The position numbers and the translations under genes were made by a program. A DNA stretch of 30,508 bases from a virus: the IMG/VR virus record IMGVR_UViG_3300026183_000023, positions 1 through 30,508 of that record; one strand, given 5' to 3'. Shown piece after piece: positions 1-29,777 of the stretch. The notes under the pieces were generated by a model that was not told the origin of the DNA, did not search any database, and saw nothing but the letters and a program-made list of their open reading frames with translations. How positions within the stretch are numbered: position 1 is the first letter of the stretch; each line of letters begins with the position of its first letter.

Positions 1-2843
1 GAATAACCAGTTGCGTTAGGAGAGTTCACCCAAGCCCCACGACCACCTAATGTTTGCTCCAGAGCACCCGCCCTACCGTTAGGATGTGGACCTGCAGTTG
101 GGTCTGTGAAAGTCATGTTTTCTATATTGTCACCGTTAATCGTGTTGGTGCGAGTGGTTGCGTCAGCACTCAAAGCACTTCCCCTGGGTGTTGCACCGTG
201 ACCGACGTTCCAACCAGAAGCCGAGGAAGCTAGTGAAATAGTTCTGGCAGCTTGACCTGCTGTGTTAGTATCACCACCAGAAGCAGTCCCGCCTGTACCA
301 CCTGTAGAGGTTGCAACAGAATTTGACGTAGCACGAACACCATTACCAGCGCCTCCACCACCTGCGGTAAGGCTAACACCAGTACCTGTCACAGTTGTTG
401 AGCCACCTGCCGTAGCTGCTTGAGATTCAGACGCATCTGATACGCTACGACCGAGACCCCCAGCACCTACAGTAATGGTTAAGTCAAGGTCGGAGGTCGG
501 TTCTAGCAATTTAGCCACCCAACCACCGGAACCACCACCTGATGCAGTAGTTGCGCTGGAACTATCATCGTCGATAGCTCCCGCACCGCCACCACCGCCA
601 CCGCCAACAGCAATAACTAGGGCTTTTGTATTTGCGGGGATGGTTACTGTTTGAGAAGACGATATGGATAGAGAATAATGTAATACCGTGTCTGCACCAC
701 CAGCGTCAGCCCAGCTGAACGAGCCATCACCGTCAGAAGTCAGAGCCTGACCTGCAGTGCCGTTACCAGTAACGTTAAGTTCGGTTGCGCCAATAGAGTT
801 TGAAGCAACGCTTGTCAGAAAAGCAGAAGCGTGTTGTCCGTCCAGTGTGTCGGCATCTAGGCCAGAGCCAGTACCGTCCACAGTTTTAATAGATGTCAAC
901 AACTCGCTTGCGGTCGGATTGACTTCAGCACCAGCTTCAATGCCGTCCAACTTTGTGCCATCTGTGGCTACATTACGGCCATCAACATTACCAGAGACAA
1001 CGATGTTGCCAGTGATGTCTACACCTGTGGTGGTGGTGGCGAGTTTGGTGGAGTTGTTGTAGTAAAGATTTACAGCACCATTTTGGTCAGCTGTAATCAT
1101 GTTCTCATTGTCAGCAGAGTTCTTTATACGGAGATTACCAGCAAGTAACTTGAGGTTCCCTGTACCTGTATCCGCAATATAACTATTCGACCCATCATGG
1201 TAAATCCCAAGGTCGTTTGCCGCACCAAAAGTGGCCTTGACGTTATCGCTGAACTTTAAGTCTCCAGAGGTCTTCGTGTCAGCGGTATCGCTGCGAAGGA
1301 ACTGGGTACTGTTGATACCATCCAGAGTGTCAGCGTCTCCACCAGCAGCAACCCAACTAAATGAGCCATCACCATCAGACGATAGTAACTGCCCTGCAGT
1401 ACCGTTACCAACTACGTTTAGCTCAGAAGCGCCTACAGCATTAGCTGCAATCTCGGAAGAGCCTACAGAGTCAGCGGCGAGGGATACAGCGATTGAAGTT
1501 GTACCAGTGCCTGTAACATCACCACTAAGAGTGATAGTTTGGTTGCCTGTTAGGTAGGAACCAGCAGGTTGGATACCCGCTTCCGCTAAGGTGTTGTTAA
1601 TCCACGCACTACCGTTCCACTTTAGGATTTCACCTGCAGAGTTAGACGTGATAGTAGTATCAGACAGGCTGTCCAGAGTACCACCACCACCAGCAGCATC
1701 TGCGGCATCCCAGCGCGAATTAGCGTTATCCCACGCCAACACTTGGCCGTCTGTGGGGGCCATTGTGTTTACATCAGAGAGAGCCTCAATACTGATAGAG
1801 CCGAGGGCTGTAGTGACATTAGTTGCGTCTGTTACGTCTGCACCAGCTTCAATACCATCAAGCTTTGTGCCATCTGTAGCTACGTCTCGACCGTCTACTG
1901 TACCAGATACAGTAATGCTGCCATCTACATCAAGGGCTGTTGCAGGGCTGCTTGCCCCAATACCTACGTTACTGGTACTAGCATCCACAAACAGCGCGTG
2001 AGTGTTAGTCGCGCTCTCGACGCGGAAGTCGTAGTCGCCACCACCATCATTAATAGTAACAGGCGCAGCTTCAATATTTATCGAGCCTGTGTTCGTTGAA
2101 ATTCGACCAGAAGCCGTCCCATCTCCGTCAAAAAACTCAATCTTATAGTTTTCTCCAAAATTGTTATCTGTACCGCCTTGGATTTTTATGCCTTTGGCGT
2201 TTGTCGAATCTCCATCGTTGATGAAACTAGCGATATTCCCCGTGACAGTACCATCCACAGTCAGACCATCGCTGGTCAAAGTCCCAGTGATGTCTACACC
2301 TGTGGTGGTGGTGGCGAGTTTAGTGGCTCCACTAAGTTTTAGCTCAACAGAACCAGTAGAGGAATTAGTGCTAAGATATTCTAATACGCCAGAACTAGAT
2401 TGAAGTTTAATACCAGTAGAACCACGAAGAATTAAGTCGCCATCTCCAGCGTCCCAAATATAACTATTCGACCCATCATGATAAATCTGCAAATCAGACG
2501 CACCACCAAAAGTGGCCTTGACGTTATCGCTAAATGCTAAGTCTCCGGAAGTCTTAGTATCAGCAGCATCGCTACGAATGAACGAAGAGCTATCGATACC
2601 ATCTAGAGTAGCAGCGTCAATACCAAGAGCATCAATGTCAGCCTTAGTCTGGTCAGCCGTAGCGCCAGCTTCAATGCCAGCAAGTTTATCACCATCAGCA
2701 AGCTCAATAACAGTCCCACCAGTGGTCTTTGTATATAATTTCTTATCGGCGAGATTAACTGCAATCTCTCCCGGCTCCAACGAACCAGCAGCAGGAACGC
2801 TACTTGCGGTTGAAGACTTCTTATGAATAATCTTAGTTGCCAT
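1..2843 (-). CDS. Modular tail fibre protein with glycine-rich C-terminal part (partial)
   Basis: The reading frame is open from the ATG at 2843 to the left edge (about 947 codons), so the C-terminus is missing. The start follows an AGGAGA ribosome site. The N-terminus (MATKIIHKKSSTASS, then LEPGEIAVNLADKKLYTK) resembles the N-terminal domain of phage fibres of the Mtd_N kind and closely matches the neighbouring fibre at 4547. The middle repeats blocks such as KATFGxAxDLxIYHDGSNSY, VDGRxVATDGTKLDGIEAGA and NGTAGQxLxSDGDGSFSW, each at least twice. Near the left edge a domain begins with SQTVTIPANTKALVIAVGG and continues with long glycine runs, like the glycine-rich domains found at phage adhesin tips. 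It probably binds the host surface (inference). It is the first gene after a promoter-like motif at 2898-2915. Confidence is high that it is a fibre, low on its receptor. Confidence 0.8.
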   Translation of the reverse strand, partial: MATKIIHKKSSTASSVPAAGSLEPGEIAVNLADKKLYTKTTGGTVIELADGDKLAGIEAGATADQTKADIDALGIDAATLDGIDSSSFIRSDAADTKTSGDLAFSDNVKATFGGASDLQIYHDGSNSYIWDAGDGDLILRGSTGIKLQSSSGVLEYLSTNSSTGSVELKLSGATKLATTTTGVDITGTLTSDGLTVDGTVTGNIASFINDGDSTNAKGIKIQGGTDNNFGENYKIEFFDGDGTASGRISTNTGSINIEAAPVTINDGGGDYDFRVESATNTHALFVDASTSNVGIGASSPATALDVDGSITVSGTVDGRDVATDGTKLDGIEAGADVTDATNVTTALGSISIEALSDVNTMAPTDGQVLAWDNANSRWDAADAAGGGGTLDSLSDTTITSNSAGEILKWNGSAWINNTLAEAGIQPAGSYLTGNQTITLSGDVTGTGTTSIAVSLAADSVGSSEIAANAVGASELNVVGNGTAGQLLSSDGDGSFSWVAAGGDADTLDGINSTQFLRSDTADTKTSGDLKFSDNVKATFGAANDLGIYHDGSNSYIADTGTGNLKLLAGNLRIKNSADNENMITADQNGAVNLYYNNSTKLATTTTGVDITGNIVVSGNVDGRNVATDGTKLDGIEAGAEVNPTASELLTSIKTVDGTGSGLDADTLDGQHASAFLTSVASNSIGATELNVTGNGTAGQALTSDGDGSFSWADAGGADTVLHYSLSISSSQTVTIPANTKALVIAVGGGGGGGAGAIDDDSSSATTASGGGSGGWVAKLLEPTSDLDLTITVGAGGLGRSVSDASESQAATAGGSTTVTGTGVSLTAGGGGAGNGVRATSNSVATSTGGTGGTASGGDTNTAGQAARTISLASSASGWNVGHGATPRGSALSADATTRTNTINGDNIENMTFTDPTAGPHPNGRAGALEQTLGGRGAWVNSPNATGY
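1009..2321. repeat. Direct repeats inside the left fibre gene
   Basis: A 38-bp block at 1009-1046 recurs without a mismatch at 2284-2321. A second, longer repeat pairs about 1177-1310 with about 2457-2580 and includes identical stretches such as CCAAAAGTGGCCTTGACG. The repeats lie in frame about 1.27 kb apart, so recombination between them would delete or duplicate a fibre segment without a frameshift. Confidence 0.85.
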
Positions 2844-13428: not shown

Positions 13429-14757
13429 TTAGAAACCAAAGCCACGCTTAATGACTGCGGTTCCTGCTCTGACTGGATATAAATACTCTACAGCATAGCG
13501 TAAAGCATCTGTCCAGTGTTCAACACCTTCCTTTTTATCAATCGTAGCACTATCTGGGTTAGACTCTACCCACTGTGTACGCTCTAGAGACTTAACGGTA
13601 TTAACACATCTAGGGTGAACTAGTATGTCAATATCGCCATTGGCATTCTTAAACTTTTTATTTACAGCTGCTACTGAGTCTACAATCGGCGGAGCCTTGT
13701 TATGTGCTCTGGTAGCTATACCATGTGTCTCTAGGATTCTGAAATCAGTAACACCGACAGCAGCTGAAGTTTTTCGTGCCCTCCCTGCGGGATCAGGATA
13801 AGAAATGATACGATGATCTTTATACTTATCCTTAAGCGCCCTCGCAAGGGTTTCAGTATCGGGGTGTCCCTGCATCTCATCAATGATGTGAATTTGATTG
13901 CCCCGAATAGCAAAGATAACAGAGGCCATGATACCAACGTTAAAGTCAATAGCGACATGAACGTCTTCTCTGTCCTCAAAATATGGAAGTGTGTTATCTA
14001 TGTGATCTTTACGATTAAACGTATAGAACACATTATTGCCAGAGTCCTCAAAGCTAGCTGTATATTCTCTAGCAAACTTTAAAGGATCTAGCGTTAATTT
14101 CACCCTATCGATTTCTTCCTCGTCGAGAAAGGGTGAATCCTTATAAGTATAATGATAACTTTTCCAGTCATCATCATAGTCTTGTCTGTTATACATCTCA
14201 TAAAAGTAGTCATAACCGCTGGGAGTACTAATAATAAGTGCTCGACCAGGATTAGCGCCCCACTTAGAAGAGTTCTGTCTGGACCAACGAGTTGATACAC
14301 AAGGCTGAATGATAGACTCCCAAGATTCCTTGAGGTTCATACCAGCGCCCTTCCATGAAGTAACCTCGTCGGCTACTACAAAGTATTGACCAGTACCACG
14401 CATACGTTGTGATGCTTCATATGACCATAACTTTAATTGTACGTTATTAGGAAACCAAAACGTACCAGCCGCCTTAGATGCTTTATCGGCATAGTCTTCC
14501 ATACCTAACTGCCAAGCTATCAGCGGATAGTAAATATCCACTGCTTGGCTATAGGTAGGAGCAATAAGTGCAACATTTTTGTTAGGCACTTCTTCATCTA
14601 ATTCAATTAATTCTTGTACAGCAATAATAGCTGCAGTAGCTGCTAAATATGATTTACCAAAACCACGGCTAGCATTAACAACAGAATATCTACAAACATT
14701 ATCTACGAATAAGTCTCGAATAACTTCTGACTGTTTATCATGTAACTTTACTTGCAT
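13429..14757 (-). CDS. terL: Terminase large subunit (packaging ATPase and nuclease)
   Basis: 442 aa. The ATPase half has a Walker A motif ASRGFGKS (residues 29-36), Walker B FVVADE (126-131) and coupling motif ALIISTPSG (173-181). The nuclease half shows candidate metal-binding acids D271 (VAIDFNVG), D322 (YPDPAG) and D417 (HWTDALRYA), as in the RNase H-like nuclease of terminases. It cuts and pumps phage DNA into the prohead at the portal. It begins a few bases after a small gene, with the probable small subunit about 620 bp upstream. Length and motif order fit a complete gene. Confidence 0.92.
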   Translation of the reverse strand: MQVKLHDKQSEVIRDLFVDNVCRYSVVNASRGFGKSYLAATAAIIAVQELIELDEEVPNKNVALIAPTYSQAVDIYYPLIAWQLGMEDYADKASKAAGTFWFPNNVQLKLWSYEASQRMRGTGQYFVVADEVTSWKGAGMNLKESWESIIQPCVSTRWSRQNSSKWGANPGRALIISTPSGYDYFYEMYNRQDYDDDWKSYHYTYKDSPFLDEEEIDRVKLTLDPLKFAREYTASFEDSGNNVFYTFNRKDHIDNTLPYFEDREDVHVAIDFNVGIMASVIFAIRGNQIHIIDEMQGHPDTETLARALKDKYKDHRIISYPDPAGRARKTSAAVGVTDFRILETHGIATRAHNKAPPIVDSVAAVNKKFKNANGDIDILVHPRCVNTVKSLERTQWVESNPDSATIDKKEGVEHWTDALRYAVEYLYPVRAGTAVIKRGFGF

Positions 14758-14760
14758 TCT

Positions 14761-15042
14761 TTACCACTTGACTTTATCAGCCCAATAAGCAGCACTCATC
14801 TTGCCTTTAGAAATGTTCTTAGCATGTCTAGCTTTAAACGACTTTCTTCGAGCAGCATAGGCATTAGACTCTCCTTTCTTCTTAGGAGAACCTTTAACAC
14901 CTTGAGCACCAAACCTAATGGTCTTAATAGTGTCACCTTCTTTAGCAACAACAACATGGCTCTTAGTTGGATGGTTAGGTGTTCTCTTTGGTTTGTTATA
15001 ACCAGAAACACCAGCTCTCTCTAATCTAGGATCTTTAGCCAT
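14761..15042 (-). CDS. Small basic phage protein, conserved type, unknown role
   Basis: 93 aa, Lys-rich. MAKDPRLERAGVSGYNKPKR, HPTKSHVVVAKEGDTIKTIR and FKARHAKNISKGKMSAAYWA look like a compact conserved phage protein that I have seen near terminase genes but cannot name. Its ATG overlaps the stop of the 19-aa gene upstream (TAATG). Position next to the terminase suggests a part in packaging or head completion. Confidence 0.6.
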   Translation of the reverse strand: MAKDPRLERAGVSGYNKPKRTPNHPTKSHVVVAKEGDTIKTIRFGAQGVKGSPKKKGESNAYAARRKSFKARHAKNISKGKMSAAYWADKVKW

Positions 15043-15110: not shown

Positions 15111-15383
15111 CTATTGTGTTCTATCAGCCATACGTTCAACAGAGTCCCGAATAGCCTTAATGTTCTCATCCATACGAACAAGAGTTAAAGCTTGTTGTTG
15201 AACCATTTTTTCTAGTGCTTCAAGGCGAACTTCTTGTCTAAGTATATCTTTTGTGTTATTACTCACAGCATTATCAAGACTAGAAACATACCATACCAAG
15301 GCAATAGTCTGTAATACAATAGCTAATATAAGAGTCAAAGGGACACTCTTAGATAGGTGCCACTGAGGGCTTACTTCATTCAT
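15111..15383 (-). CDS. Membrane-anchored coiled-coil protein (holin- or spanin-like candidate)
   Basis: 90 aa. A single hydrophobic segment at residues 14-34 (SVPLTLILAIVLQTIALVWY) follows a short N-terminal tail. The rest is a heptad-like helix (LRQEVRLEALEKMVQQQALT), giving an N-in, C-out topology with a periplasmic coiled coil. That layout fits an inner-membrane spanin or a holin-like protein, but no endolysin or outer-membrane partner is visible nearby. It overlaps the gene upstream by 8 nt. Confidence 0.55.
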   Translation of the reverse strand: MNEVSPQWHLSKSVPLTLILAIVLQTIALVWYVSSLDNAVSNNTKDILRQEVRLEALEKMVQQQALTLVRMDENIKAIRDSVERMADRTQ

Positions 15384-15735
15384 TGTTATTCTCCCGAGAA
15401 TCAGTTAACATGATTGTCACAGGTTTCTTTTTGGTGACTTCCTGCTCCACCTTATCCGGGATCTTCTTATAACCATACTGCATAAGATTATTAATGAGAG
15501 TACCTTGAGTGGCAATCAACTGAGCATAAGCCCCAGTGCCTTCTCTAACAGCACCAGACATTAGCTGTTGTTGGATCTCATTATACTTTTTAACCATCAT
15601 TTCAATAGGATCAAAACCAAGTTCTTCTAGCTTCTTTACTGAAGCCATTGAGTTAATATTCTTAGAGCCTTTAGGACGACCAGCACCTTCACGCTTGCCT
15701 CCCTTAGTTGGCTTCGTAGGGTTTGGATTAGCCAT
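15376..15735 (-). CDS. Probable terminase small subunit
   Basis: 119 aa from the ATG at 15735, chosen for the AAAGGAA site just upstream; an extension to 15792 would need TTG and has no site. The N-terminus KGGKREGAGRPKGSKNINSM is the GRPKGS-type basic motif common at the start of small terminases. It is followed by a helical region (KKLEELGFDPIEMMVKKYNE) typical of these proteins. It would recognise phage DNA and hand it to the large subunit at 13429-14757. Gene order supports the call, but the motif alone is not decisive. Confidence 0.55.
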   Translation of the reverse strand: MANPNPTKPTKGGKREGAGRPKGSKNINSMASVKKLEELGFDPIEMMVKKYNEIQQQLMSGAVREGTGAYAQLIATQGTLINNLMQYGYKKIPDKVEQEVTKKKPVTIMLTDSRENNNE

Positions 15736-15842
15736 CTTAGAGGTTTCCTTTTCTAATATAATTTCAAAGAAAATTTTAATAATTACTTTCAATAACTTAA
15801 TAATAGAAATTATAACTCATTGAAGTTATTAAAAAATATTAT

Positions 15843-16586
15843 TTATTTTTCCAAGTCAATATAGGCGTTTTCTACTAAAAGTACATCGAATGCTGCTGTC
15901 AACCGAGCGTTGTTAGATCTTACTGTAGCTCTAACATCAATATCGCTTTTCTCGGGAATACGAATAGGAACTGCGAACTCATAGTTATACATCCCACCAA
16001 CACCTGCGACTTCAAAGCTATGGCCAACTCTAAAAGAGTCTTGACCAAAGTATCTTACAAACATATCGCCAGTAGCATCAGCAGAGGATTGTACTGTACA
16101 AACACCTTTAATTAAATACCCTGTAAAACCTGCTGGAACTGTATAAATAGCCATTAAGGTTTGACCCTTTCCTGCTTTAATTCTACAAACAGTTGTAGAA
16201 GAAGCTTGAAGGTCAATATCACCCACATTAGTAGAACCATCTACTACATAAGCTCTATATACTCTAAGAAAGCTTTTGGTAGTTGTAACAGAAGAAGCAG
16301 AACTAACAACAACATCTTCTTGTTGTTCATTATAATTACTATCTAAACCTAAAATAGTAATTGTTTTACCAGTATCACTAGCATTAACAGCAGGAATGGT
16401 CAGCTGGGTAGTTGTAGCTAAAGCACTCCAAGGGTAGTCTGTATCATTAACATCCCAAATAGTACCAGTTTGGTTTTGAGACATTGCAGGAACAGCACCA
16501 AACTTATGAATAGCCCTGTGAGCATTAACTTTGCCTTTAGAAACCTTTAGGTAAAAAGGTTCTGTATGAAACTGTCCAAAGTTCAT
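15843..16586 (-). CDS. Virion structural protein, family not named
   Basis: 247 aa, mostly beta, with no signal peptide. The sequence (MNFGQFHTEPFYLKVSKGKV, GTIWDVNDTDYPW, LKGxxTVQSS-like strands, PIRIPEKSDIDVRATVRSNN) resembles a jelly-roll-like structural protein seen in several marine phage genomes; I cannot name it more exactly. AAGGAGAA precedes the ATG. It is the first gene after promoter-like motif 2 and the structured leader, so it should be among the most strongly controlled late genes. The 107 bp to the next gene are very AT-rich. Confidence 0.55.
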   Translation of the reverse strand: MNFGQFHTEPFYLKVSKGKVNAHRAIHKFGAVPAMSQNQTGTIWDVNDTDYPWSALATTTQLTIPAVNASDTGKTITILGLDSNYNEQQEDVVVSSASSVTTTKSFLRVYRAYVVDGSTNVGDIDLQASSTTVCRIKAGKGQTLMAIYTVPAGFTGYLIKGVCTVQSSADATGDMFVRYFGQDSFRVGHSFEVAGVGGMYNYEFAVPIRIPEKSDIDVRATVRSNNARLTAAFDVLLVENAYIDLEK

Positions 16587-16658
16587 TGGAGTTCTCCTTA
16601 AATAAGTATAAATTAAAAAACATAAAATTCTTTAAATTATACTTAAAGAATTCTTACA

Positions 16659-16817
16659 CTAAAGATACCAAAGTGATACTATTAATAATCCCCCGTATTG
16701 TATACATCTTGGGAGACATAGAAGTGGATATCAGCGGGGGATTTTACAGTGTGATTTCAGATATCAATATCACACAAACCCACAAGGGGTAATAGTATCA
16801 CTTTGGCAGAGCTTTAG
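16659..16817 (-). ncRNA. Nested inverted-repeat structure, probable structured 5' leader
   Basis: A perfect 17-bp inverted repeat (16668-16684 with 16790-16806, TAATAGTATCACTTTGG) encloses two further perfect repeats: AATCCCCCG with CGGGGGATT (16687-16695 / 16735-16743) and GTGTGAT with ATCACAC (16749-16755 / 16769-16775). An outer 6-bp pairing (16659-16664 with 16812-16817) extends the base. Folded as RNA this gives a three-way junction. It lies between promoter-like motif 2 and the structural gene at 16586 and has no credible gene. It could be an RNA leader, a small RNA, or a DNA element such as an origin or packaging site. Confidence 0.65.
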
Positions 16818-16827
16818 CAAAGTTATT

Positions 16828-16845
16828 CTTAAACGTCAGGTATTA
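16828..16845 (-). promoter_or_regulatory. Phage promoter-like motif, copy 2
   Basis: The minus strand reads TAATACCTGACGTTTAAG, one base different from copies 1 and 3. It sits in the largest stretch without a protein gene (16587-16912), about 240 bp upstream of the first structural gene. The presumed start base G is at 16828, 22 nt before the perfect 17-bp stem begins. Confidence 0.65.
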
Positions 16846-16912: not shown

Positions 16913-17149
16913 TTAGTCTTTCTTCATAACAAATTCATAAAGAGTTTCAGCTTGTTTTTTAACCTCTTCGGGTGTATACATCTTGGGGATATACTTCTCC
17001 CAAGCATCCATAGCCATCTCACTATTCTCTTTCATGAGTTCAAAAGCTTGGTTAGTAATTTGGAGGTTAGTTTCGTATGCCTTATCCAGCATTTCTTTAG
17101 ACATCTGGAGGACGTCATAGCGGAGTTGGTAGGGGTTTTTCTGTGTCAT
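16913..17149 (-). CDS. Small helical protein of a common phage type, unknown role
   Basis: 78 aa, almost all helix. MTQKNPYQLRYDVLQMSKEM, then LDKAYETN and a C-terminal YTPEEVKKQAETLYEFV. I recall similar short proteins in T4-like cyanophages but know no function. GAGGAA lies 9 nt before the ATG. It stands alone between the tRNA terminator and promoter motif 2, so its RNA would have to come from read-through or an unseen promoter. Confidence 0.55.
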   Translation of the reverse strand: MTQKNPYQLRYDVLQMSKEMLDKAYETNLQITNQAFELMKENSEMAMDAWEKYIPKMYTPEEVKKQAETLYEFVMKKD

Positions 17150-17170
17150 GTGTATGTTCCTCGCTATAAG

Positions 17171-17282
17171 AAAAAAAAAAAATAAAGGTCTCCCCTAGAA
17201 CACCCCAATACCACCCTTATTCCAATAACACTTAAAGTGATACTGAAACAAGAATGATACTGAGATGCTCTAGGAGATACCT
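17171..17282 (-). terminator. Long-stem intrinsic terminator after the tRNA genes
   Basis: On the minus strand AGGTATCTCCTAGAGCATC (17282-17264) pairs with GGTGTTCTAGGGGAGACCT (17204-17186) over 19 positions with one mismatch and three G-U pairs. It is followed by TTTA and a run of twelve T (17182-17171). The 59-nt loop is unusually long. It starts three bases after the tRNA-Leu CCA end and would end transcripts carrying the tRNAs. Confidence 0.65.
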
Positions 17283-17284
17283 AT

Positions 17285-17367
17285 TGGTGTCCGTACTCGG
17301 ACTTGAACCGAGAAGCCGAAGCGACAGATTTTAAGTCTGTTGTGTTTACCTATTTCACCATACGGAC
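17285..17367 (-). tRNA. tRNA-Leu(UAA), CCA encoded
   Basis: All arms are visible: acceptor GTCCGTA/TACGGAC with discriminator A, D-stem GTG/CAC, anticodon stem ACAGA/TCTGT with loop CTTAAAA (anticodon TAA), a long variable arm (GCTTCGGC) as in class II tRNAs, and T-arm CTCGG-TTCAAGT-CCGAG. The 3' CCA is in the DNA. It reads UUA, frequent in this AT-leaning genome. Confidence 0.95.
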
Positions 17368-17404
17368 GTAATGGTGCTCCCTACAAATTCGAAACCCGGG
17401 AGGT

Positions 17405-17481
17405 TGGCCTTCTCTGTAGGACTCGAACCCACAACCTGCTGATTAGAAGTCAGCTGCTCTATCCAGTTGAGCTAAGAGAAG
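17405..17481 (-). tRNA. tRNA-Arg(UCU), CCA encoded
   Basis: Acceptor CTTCTCT/AGAGAAG with discriminator G, D-stem GCTC/GAGC, anticodon stem GCTGA/TCAGC with loop CTTCTAA (anticodon TCT), and T-arm GTGGG-TTCGAGT-CCTAC with one G-U pair. CCA is encoded. It reads AGA/AGG. It is separated from tRNA-Leu by 37 nt containing a CTCCC/GGGAG hairpin. Confidence 0.95.
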
Positions 17482-17518
17482 GTAATGAGCAGTTTATAGT
17501 CTTGCTCAGGACAATTAT

Positions 17519-19844: not shown

Positions 19845-19874
19845 TCTAGATCTCTCTAATATAATTTAATTGTT

Positions 19875-19892
19875 CTTTAACGTCAGGTATTA
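19875..19892 (-). promoter_or_regulatory. Phage promoter-like motif, copy 3
   Basis: The minus strand reads TAATACCTGACGTTAAAG, identical to copy 1. Its upstream half overlaps the last codons and stop of the 42-aa gene at 19883-20011. It would transcribe the ten small genes from 19844 down to 17519 and the tRNAs. Confidence 0.65.
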
Positions 19893-29108: not shown

Positions 29109-29777
29109 TTACCTCTTCTCCTTCAAGACATAAGTGACACCATCAATTTCAATCTCACGACCCTCGCAAGATACCTTCTTAGGCTCACGCAAGTCAATAC
29201 CAGTAATTTCTAGGAAAACATCGGCATCAAACGCAGGTAGACGCTTGGTCAGCTCAATGTCTTCTGGTGTAGCGTTATTATAAGCCTTTCGCCACTCTTC
29301 TTTTATGTCATTCACACGAAGGTAACCTCCTGTTGCCTCATGTGTTGGGTTGTCTGCTTTTTCTTGAGGGGTCATGTCTCCTGATGATACCCAAGCCGTA
29401 GGGCGTAGGTCATAAATCCAGCTAGGTTTTCTAGCATTGTCCCACACGTTTTTATCAATAAGTTGATTGAAGTAGTAGGCTTTTTCTGCACAAGTTGTGT
29501 TGAAACAACCTACATGATAGTCACCAGTGTTGTAGTGACCAGTGTTGTAGTCACCAGTGTTGTAGTCACCAGTGTTGTAGATACCAGTGTTGTAGATACC
29601 AGTGTTGTAGTAACCAGTGTTGTAGTCACCAGTGTTGCGCCAACCAGTGTTGCGGTTACCAGTGTTGCGGTTACCAGTGTTGGAGAAACCAGTGTTGTAG
29701 TTACCAGTGTTGTAGCTACCAGTGTTGTAGTGACCAGTGTTGCGGTAACCAGTGTTGTTTTTCTCATCAGTAGTCAT
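29109..29777 (-). CDS. NTG pentapeptide-repeat protein
   Basis: 222 aa. Residues 8-95 are sixteen NTGxx pentapeptides plus two degenerate ones, like the Pentapeptide_2 (NxGxxNxG) class that should form a right-handed beta solenoid. Residues 96-190 are a separate domain (AYYFNQLIDKNVWDNARKPS, EEWRKAYNNATPEDIELTKR), also seen after such repeats in other phage proteins as far as I recall. The C-terminus is the shared cassette (LREPKKVSCEGREIEIDG, VTYVLKEKR). The start overlaps the upstream stop (TAATG). The role is unknown; some other pentapeptide proteins mimic DNA, but of a different sequence class. Confidence 0.7.
   Translation of the reverse strand: MTTDEKNNTGYRNTGHYNTGSYNTGNYNTGFSNTGNRNTGNRNTGWRNTGDYNTGYYNTGIYNTGIYNTGDYNTGDYNTGHYNTGDYHVGCFNTTCAEKAYYFNQLIDKNVWDNARKPSWIYDLRPTAWVSSGDMTPQEKADNPTHEATGGYLRVNDIKEEWRKAYNNATPEDIELTKRLPAFDADVFLEITGIDLREPKKVSCEGREIEIDGVTYVLKEKR
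29493..29756 (-). repeat. 15-bp tandem repeat array (NTG-coding)
   Basis: The plus strand repeats ACCAGTGTTG plus five variable bases about sixteen times. The array is coding (NTGxx), not a CRISPR. Units differ mainly in the codons for the two variable residues. Confidence 0.9.

Follow-up and report, generated by a model that had tools for sequence, protein, structure and literature searches.

What does a folded, non-coding stretch of about 160 bases do in front of the late genes of an uncultured aquatic phage? The element lies at 16659-16817 on the minus strand of the window, by which we mean the whole analyzed stretch of 30,508 nucleotides (positions 1 to 30,508 of IMG/VR record IMGVR_UViG_3300026183_000023), and was recognized by its nested inverted repeats between an ORF at 16913-17149 and the start codon of the next gene at 16586. 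An earlier note on this DNA had offered four roles, namely a stabilizer of late mRNA, a cut site for host RNase III, a phage small RNA, or a DNA element, and of these the stabilizer is now the leading candidate. The same note took the locus for the largest non-protein-coding interval in the window, which is correct if the two-tRNA interval at 17150-17518 is excluded and incorrect otherwise.

Nested repeats and the predicted fold

All of the pairings described earlier were recovered: a perfect 17-bp repeat (16668-16684/16790-16806), perfect repeats of 9 bp (16687-16695/16735-16743) and 7 bp (16749-16755/16769-16775), and an outer 6-bp pairing (16659-16664/16812-16817). The outer arm had been placed about 12 nt past the start base of the promoter, and position 16817 is indeed about +12 from the predicted +1 at 16828. 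RNA folding gave z scores of -7.7 for the plus strand and -7.2 for the minus strand, and no shuffled sequence equalled the native fold. As with the flanking genes, the minus strand is the one taken as transcribed, and the parts of the element are given below on that strand.

The predicted RNA is closed by two successive helices. The outer one, P0 (5' strand 16812-16817, 3' strand 16659-16664; from the fold and the alignment), is separated from P1 by a conserved asymmetric internal loop, CUCUG at 16807-16811 opposite 16665-16667, which was seen in alignment A1 (described below) and is retained in copies L344, L347, and L355 despite their different P1 sequence. P1 (5' strand 16790-16806, 3' strand 16668-16684) is a perfect 17-bp stem in the window and, like the two inner hairpins, was identified by repeat search and covariation. 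A small accessory hairpin, CCCCTTGTGGG, present also in L091, occupies the junction at 16779-16789 according to A1 and the fold. Hairpin P2 spans 16749-16775 (stem 16769-16775/16749-16755) and carries a 13-nt loop at 16756-16768, AUUGAUAUCUGAA, of which the family form is AYY-N6-YGAA. Hairpin P3 spans 16687-16743 (stem 16735-16743/16687-16695); its apical part is variable, and covariation marks a conserved 7-bp part at 16735-16741/16689-16695.

The two inner hairpins have mutually complementary loops, in which 16765-16760 is predicted to pair with 16732-16727 as a 6-bp kissing pseudoknot. The 5' strand of this helix, GAUAUC at 16760-16765, lies within the P2 loop, and the 3' strand, also GAUAUC (16727-16732), lies on the 5' side of the P3 loop. 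The three-way junction proposed in the earlier note is supported by the relatives, whereas the kissing pseudoknot had been overlooked. Those relatives show the kissing interaction to be the most informative part of the element.

No open frame was found within the element; stops occur in all six frames in ten copies, and a coding explanation was therefore rejected. Neither an intrinsic terminator (GC hairpin and T run) at the element or in the following tract nor a sigma-70 promoter (-35/-10) at the element was found. From the element to the ribosome-binding site runs a very AU-rich tract (16600-16658), recognized by its GC composition; the GC content of the first 60 nt after the element is 0.15 in the window and 0.07-0.30 in the relatives.

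Compensatory changes and exchanged modules in related phages

About 39 distinct copies of the element were recovered from related viral contigs. This listing required a matched kissing pair and was excluded from the evidence for that pair, which comes from a set of 23 copies obtained by scans for the P1 arm and the promoter. These were chosen by promoter plus inverted repeat, regardless of the kissing pair, and aligned by MAFFT on sequence only (alignment A1). Diverged copies were added by a scan for the P2 loop, by a covariance model (R1), and through homologues of the TerS-like protein discussed below. Model R1 was built without the kissing pair, and the copies found with it (L365, L368, L373, and L381) all have matched kissing strands. 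A weak match to the model in L399 (E 0.005) was rejected, as it has no kissing pair and resembles an ordinary terminator. Homologues of the 247-aa product of the next gene led to L004-L007, which share the promoter and P1 and have different inner hairpins. The isolate phage and plasmid records searched contained no element, and the bacterial genome contigs searched for the TerS-like protein contained no relative.

On A1, RNAalifold found P0, P1, P2, and P3, with 16 of 35 pairs compensated. With the full named structure applied to the 23 copies, 98.9% of 891 cells are paired and two-sided compensatory changes are present in 19 of 39 pairs. Covariation was 0.312, compared with 0.123 when shuffled (none of 500 shuffles was as good), and controls in which the structure was slid reached at most 0.077, with at most 54.3% of cells paired. 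The earlier note had named paired arms that change together as the outcome in favor of an RNA, and this is what was observed. Loss of pairing on one side, which it had said would refute the idea, was not seen in element-carrying copies; L360 and L361 retain the promoter and terminase genes and lack the whole element.

The kissing complementarity, first spotted by eye in A1, is intact in all 23 copies (138 of 138 cells paired). Two-sided changes affect five of its six pairs, with a covariation of 0.625 versus 0.315 when shuffled; the strands read GATATC/GATATC in the window, and GACATC/GATGTC and GGTACT/AGTACC are found in relatives. In a core alignment of 27 copies (A4), the kissing helix is 100%, P2 99%, and P3 92% paired, and 10 of 18 pairs are compensated; P3 falls short because rows with ACCCCCG/CGGGGGU are displaced by one column. 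The listing of about 39 copies, for which a matched pair was required, contains eight kissing variants, each of them matched, and a set of eight requires at least seven paired changes. Read in the sense direction, the alignment has 24 G-U cells against 2 A-C cells, an excess that supports an RNA role, though it is dominated by one pair (18 of the 24 G-U cells come from one position). That the element is an RNA placed in a leader we regard as secure, with very little room for doubt.

The sequence of P1 is free, and its length ranges from about 7 to about 49 bp: the stem approaches 50 bp in L345, measures about 22 bp in L355 and 7 bp in L368, and has all but vanished in L373. The arm reads CCAAAGTGATACT in most copies, CCTAGAAGATACC in L344, and CCTGTTAATACCTATCTACC in L355. 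Because P1 varies so freely, the P2-kiss-P3 core is the constant part of the element and P1 a generic closing stem. Extra junction hairpins occur in the window and in L084, L195, L209, L240, L344, and L347. The arm CCAAAGTGATACT was also considered as a dispersed DNA-binding motif and dismissed as weak, with 22 matches at up to 3 mismatches in the window against 11.3 expected; the only two exact matches in the window are both P1 arms. The contigs of L148 and L356 start no more than 2 bases apart within the 5' arm of P1; the assembly may have broken at the hairpin, or the DNA may really end there.

The way in which the kissing letters change is seen best in L138 and L130, of which the downstream flanks are 95% identical and P1 and P3 are the same, while P2 and both kissing strands have been replaced together. 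Part of the change in kissing type is therefore a block exchange of the P2/kissing module between close relatives; because of such exchange, the changes of kissing type on a TerL/TerS tree, at least 11 in number, are not to be read as 11 independent mutations.

Promoter and late operon

A late phage promoter, TAATACCTGACGTTTAAG, was recognized by its recurrence and lies at 16828-16845 on the minus strand, with a predicted transcription start at 16828. Its 19-base form, AATACCTGACGTTNAAGAA, occurs three times without a mismatch in the window, each time on the minus strand (2896-2914, 16826-16844, and 19873-19891), where 0.04 matches would be expected at up to 3 mismatches. Two sub-types can be told apart, GTTTAAGAATAA ahead of the late leader and GTTAAAGAA at other sites, and the other promoter copies head unrelated leaders. 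The promoter occurs 2-5 times per record, on a single strand, in four related viral records, and a reversed control gave none. A T7-type RNA polymerase of about 735 aa is encoded by most of the related records searched, and several encode an additional giant second polymerase-like protein (about 1450-1580 aa). Because of these T7-type polymerases in relatives and the one-strand recurrence of the promoter, a single-subunit phage polymerase is the likely reader of TAATACCTGACGTTTAAG. Both the T7-type enzyme and a second polymerase-like protein are found in the G016, G019, G020, G008, and DSS3_VP1/PM1 records, the second protein being of the giant size in most of them, a layout that recalls the multiple polymerases of N4. 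The element survives a change of promoter type: L381 has a different promoter, AAATACTGCCGACTAATGATAA, L345 has a close form of it, and this type is found again in a related 63-kb record; in both copies the element stands behind the promoter. Counted from the start, most copies have the P2 loop at +46/+47, and inserts shift it in the others.

Downstream of the leader, a Shine-Dalgarno sequence, AAGGAG (16594-16599), precedes the start codon at 16586. The first gene (15843-16586, minus strand) encodes a 247-aa virion-type protein matching phrog_8198. It is an occasional insert between the element and the TerS-like gene and is absent there in most relatives; we rejected it as the carrier of the element, its homologues being mostly in other phages without the promoter or the element. 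The next gene (15376-15756, minus strand) encodes a small basic protein without a Pfam match, which from its position and conservation is probably the small terminase subunit. The large terminase subunit, TerL, is encoded at 13429-14757 on the same strand (PHROG and Pfam matches). The TerS-like gene is downstream of the element in all copies with enough flank, with or without the intervening 247-aa gene, and so is TerL where the contig extends to it; the spacer from element to gene varies from about 20 to about 220 nt. Comparison of these sequences places the element as the putative 5' leader of a late operon, upstream of the TerS-like gene and TerL, and reading into the operon is presumed because there is no terminator. 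The position of a late-transcript leader, as claimed in the earlier note, is supported, while the link to the terminase operon had escaped it. We would be surprised if the predicted fold with its kissing helix, or the position of the element between the promoter and the terminase genes, proved wrong. The nearest named phages by TerL (66% identity) are Noahvirus DSS3_VP1 and DSS3_PM1 of the Naomviridae, which are roseobacter phages; these isolates gave no match to the element, and their leaders differ.

Several other features of this region and of the window were recorded. Directly ahead of the TerS-like gene is an AT-rich dyad, TTTTCAATRRSTTA...TAAGTTATTGAAA (window 15757-15860, minus strand), seen at the same place in many relatives, some of them without the kissing RNA, and a candidate packaging/cos site or hairpin. 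A different leader, consisting of a hairpin GAGACAG...CUGANAGUCUC and a G/C-rich hairpin between two promoter copies, is present at L305:595-706, in L254, and in others, and at least in L286 a homologue of the window ORF at 14761-15042 follows it. Group I introns (Rfam RF00028) lie inside the TerL gene of two relatives (L344:9768-10016 and L345:2665-2908), and the TerL of DSS3_VP1 is annotated in two parts. At 29109-29777 (minus strand), the window has a gene of NTGxYNTG-type repeats, an unusual tandem-repeat protein. A sub-threshold match to the HDV-like ribozyme drz-agam-1 at 256-333 (minus strand; 31.0 bits versus 37 needed, E 0.015) is probably within coding sequence and probably due to chance.

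Possible functions and relation to known RNAs

The main question then is what such a leader is for. Our favored answer is that the late transcript carries at its 5' end a structured leader that acts in cis as a protective cap, and to this whole statement, function included, we assign a probability of roughly 0.4. The phage polymerase would start at about 16828, and the first ~170 nt would fold into a three-way junction, with P0 and P1 closing the ends and hairpins P2 and P3 locked by the 6-bp kissing helix between their loops. The AU-rich, weakly structured tract and the ribosome-binding site would come after this folded RNA. The compact cap could bury the 5' end of a long-lived late mRNA, fend off 5'-end-dependent host nucleases, and keep the ribosome landing tract open. 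Here we infer that transcription proceeds as proposed, that the kiss forms within one molecule, that the function is protective, and that the late mRNA is served in cis. Some observations fit poorly. Since protection needs merely a simple 5' hairpin, the kept kissing helix and the loop letters A-Y-Y...Y-G-A-A suggest a more specific role; the promoter and terminase genes of L360 and L361 do without the element; P1, the presumed seal of the 5' end, is almost gone in L373; and pure protection does not predict that the P2/kissing module swaps between close relatives.

The first rival is an operator. A protein of the phage or the host would bind at the kissing core and extend along the AU-rich tract, controlling translation of the first late genes in the manner of gp32. 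The anatomy, knotted RNA followed by a very AU-rich leader and Shine-Dalgarno sequence, is the same as in the T4 gene 32 leader, the operon is constant downstream, and unpaired loop letters are conserved. We nevertheless consider this reading unlikely: the first gene differs between copies, being either the 247-aa gene or the TerS-like gene, which argues against a dedicated gp32-type operator; the spacer varies in length; loop and P2 sequences swap between near-identical phages; and no candidate binding protein was identified. The block exchange of the kissing module would suit an RNA acting in trans, cut from the leader at P0/P1 by RNase III or another nuclease, possibly as a packaging RNA whose molecules assemble by pairing through their loops. 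Such an RNA would agree also with the three-way junction, with loop letters that vary while their complementarity stays, as in the phi29-group pRNAs (PMC5340915), with the adjoining terminase genes, and with the single sense-strand copy in each record searched. It seems distinctly unlikely, however, as neither a terminator nor a transcription unit of its own was found, the two loops may pair inside a single molecule, and a canonical TerL and a probable TerS are present; moreover, packaging in L360 and L361 would be independent of the element unless it has been relocated outside the fragment. A bolder version, by analogy, is a long shot: the loops would pair between molecules, and copies released from the leader would form a multimer serving the terminase, a pRNA-like device outside the phi29 group. 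If it were true, the kissing letters would mark types of specificity, and their block exchange between near-identical phages would be explained.

A processing site at which RNase III trims the late transcript could use the long perfect P1 of the window, L345, and L355 beside its conserved asymmetric internal loop, but a duplex of about 11-22 bp is not found in all members; P1 has shrunk to about 7 bp or less in L368 and L373 with the P2/P3 kissing core intact, which disfavors the obligate cut site offered by the earlier note, and no kissing helix is needed for cleavage. We rate this as improbable. Control of transcription, in which the nascent RNA acts on its own polymerase by pause release or antitermination over the long late operon, is about equally improbable. 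The element does lie at the transcript start, at a near-constant distance from +1, behind a promoter that heads the terminase/structural operon; yet transcription here is probably the work of a single-subunit phage enzyme, a class for which we know of no RNA-based antitermination, and no terminators were mapped downstream. Least probable of all is a role as DNA, whether replication origin, packaging site, or single-strand hairpin promoter of a giant virion-type polymerase. The strong inverted repeats, the giant second RNAP-like protein of relatives, and the contigs (L148, L356) that end inside P1 would speak for it. The purely DNA role suggested earlier is disfavored by the fixed place after the promoter, the kissing covariation, and the surplus of G-U cells over A-C cells when the sense strand is read, and the 13-nt loops are unlike the 3-base loops of N4-type promoter hairpins.

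Is this a new RNA? In Rfam 15, the window element had no match at E ≤ 5, six relatives had none at the gathering score, and a scan of copy L192 gave chance-level matches only. No description of the element was found in the literature, which was covered by titles and abstracts, mostly outside subscription papers. Compensatory changes on both arms were found in many copies, as a new family calls for, and we conclude that the element is a new RNA family on a known architecture, the three-way junction with kissing loops. A little-studied group of aquatic phages gains from this a structured RNA family with good support and no earlier listing. Its eight matched kissing versions are natural variants for testing how a phage controls or protects its late mRNA, and the module exchange between near-identical phages is a natural experiment on action in cis versus in trans.

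Among known systems, the T4 gene 32 mRNA has a pseudoknot and, after it, a UUAAA-rich tract of less structure that holds the ribosome-binding site, and gp32 acts on its own mRNA (PMC535899). The element shows the same order, with knotted RNA on the 5' side and then a weakly structured, AU-rich stretch and a ribosome-binding site. The T4 structure, however, is a pseudoknot of ~28 nt ahead of the gene for a single-stranded DNA-binding protein, whereas our element is a three-way junction of ~160 nt whose hairpins kiss, and it precedes terminase/structural genes, with no candidate for a bound protein. In the phi29-group pRNAs the mutually complementary loops vary in their letters between phages while the structure stays (PMC5340915). 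The element shares the three-way junction and the two mutually complementary loops and has no relation to the phi29-type pRNA in Rfam; the pRNA stands as an RNA of its own whose copies pair with one another in the packaging motor, whereas the element lies within the leader of the late mRNA. Kissing three-way junctions of the purine-riboswitch type likewise have a closing helix and two hairpins joined by loop-loop pairing, but the element has no Rfam match, evident conserved ligand pocket at the junction, or visible expression switch. The 5' stem-loops and RNase III sites of T7-like late mRNAs also form a structured leader directly behind a promoter for a single-subunit RNA polymerase; those are simple hairpins, whereas here the leader is a multi-helix RNA with a covarying kissing helix.
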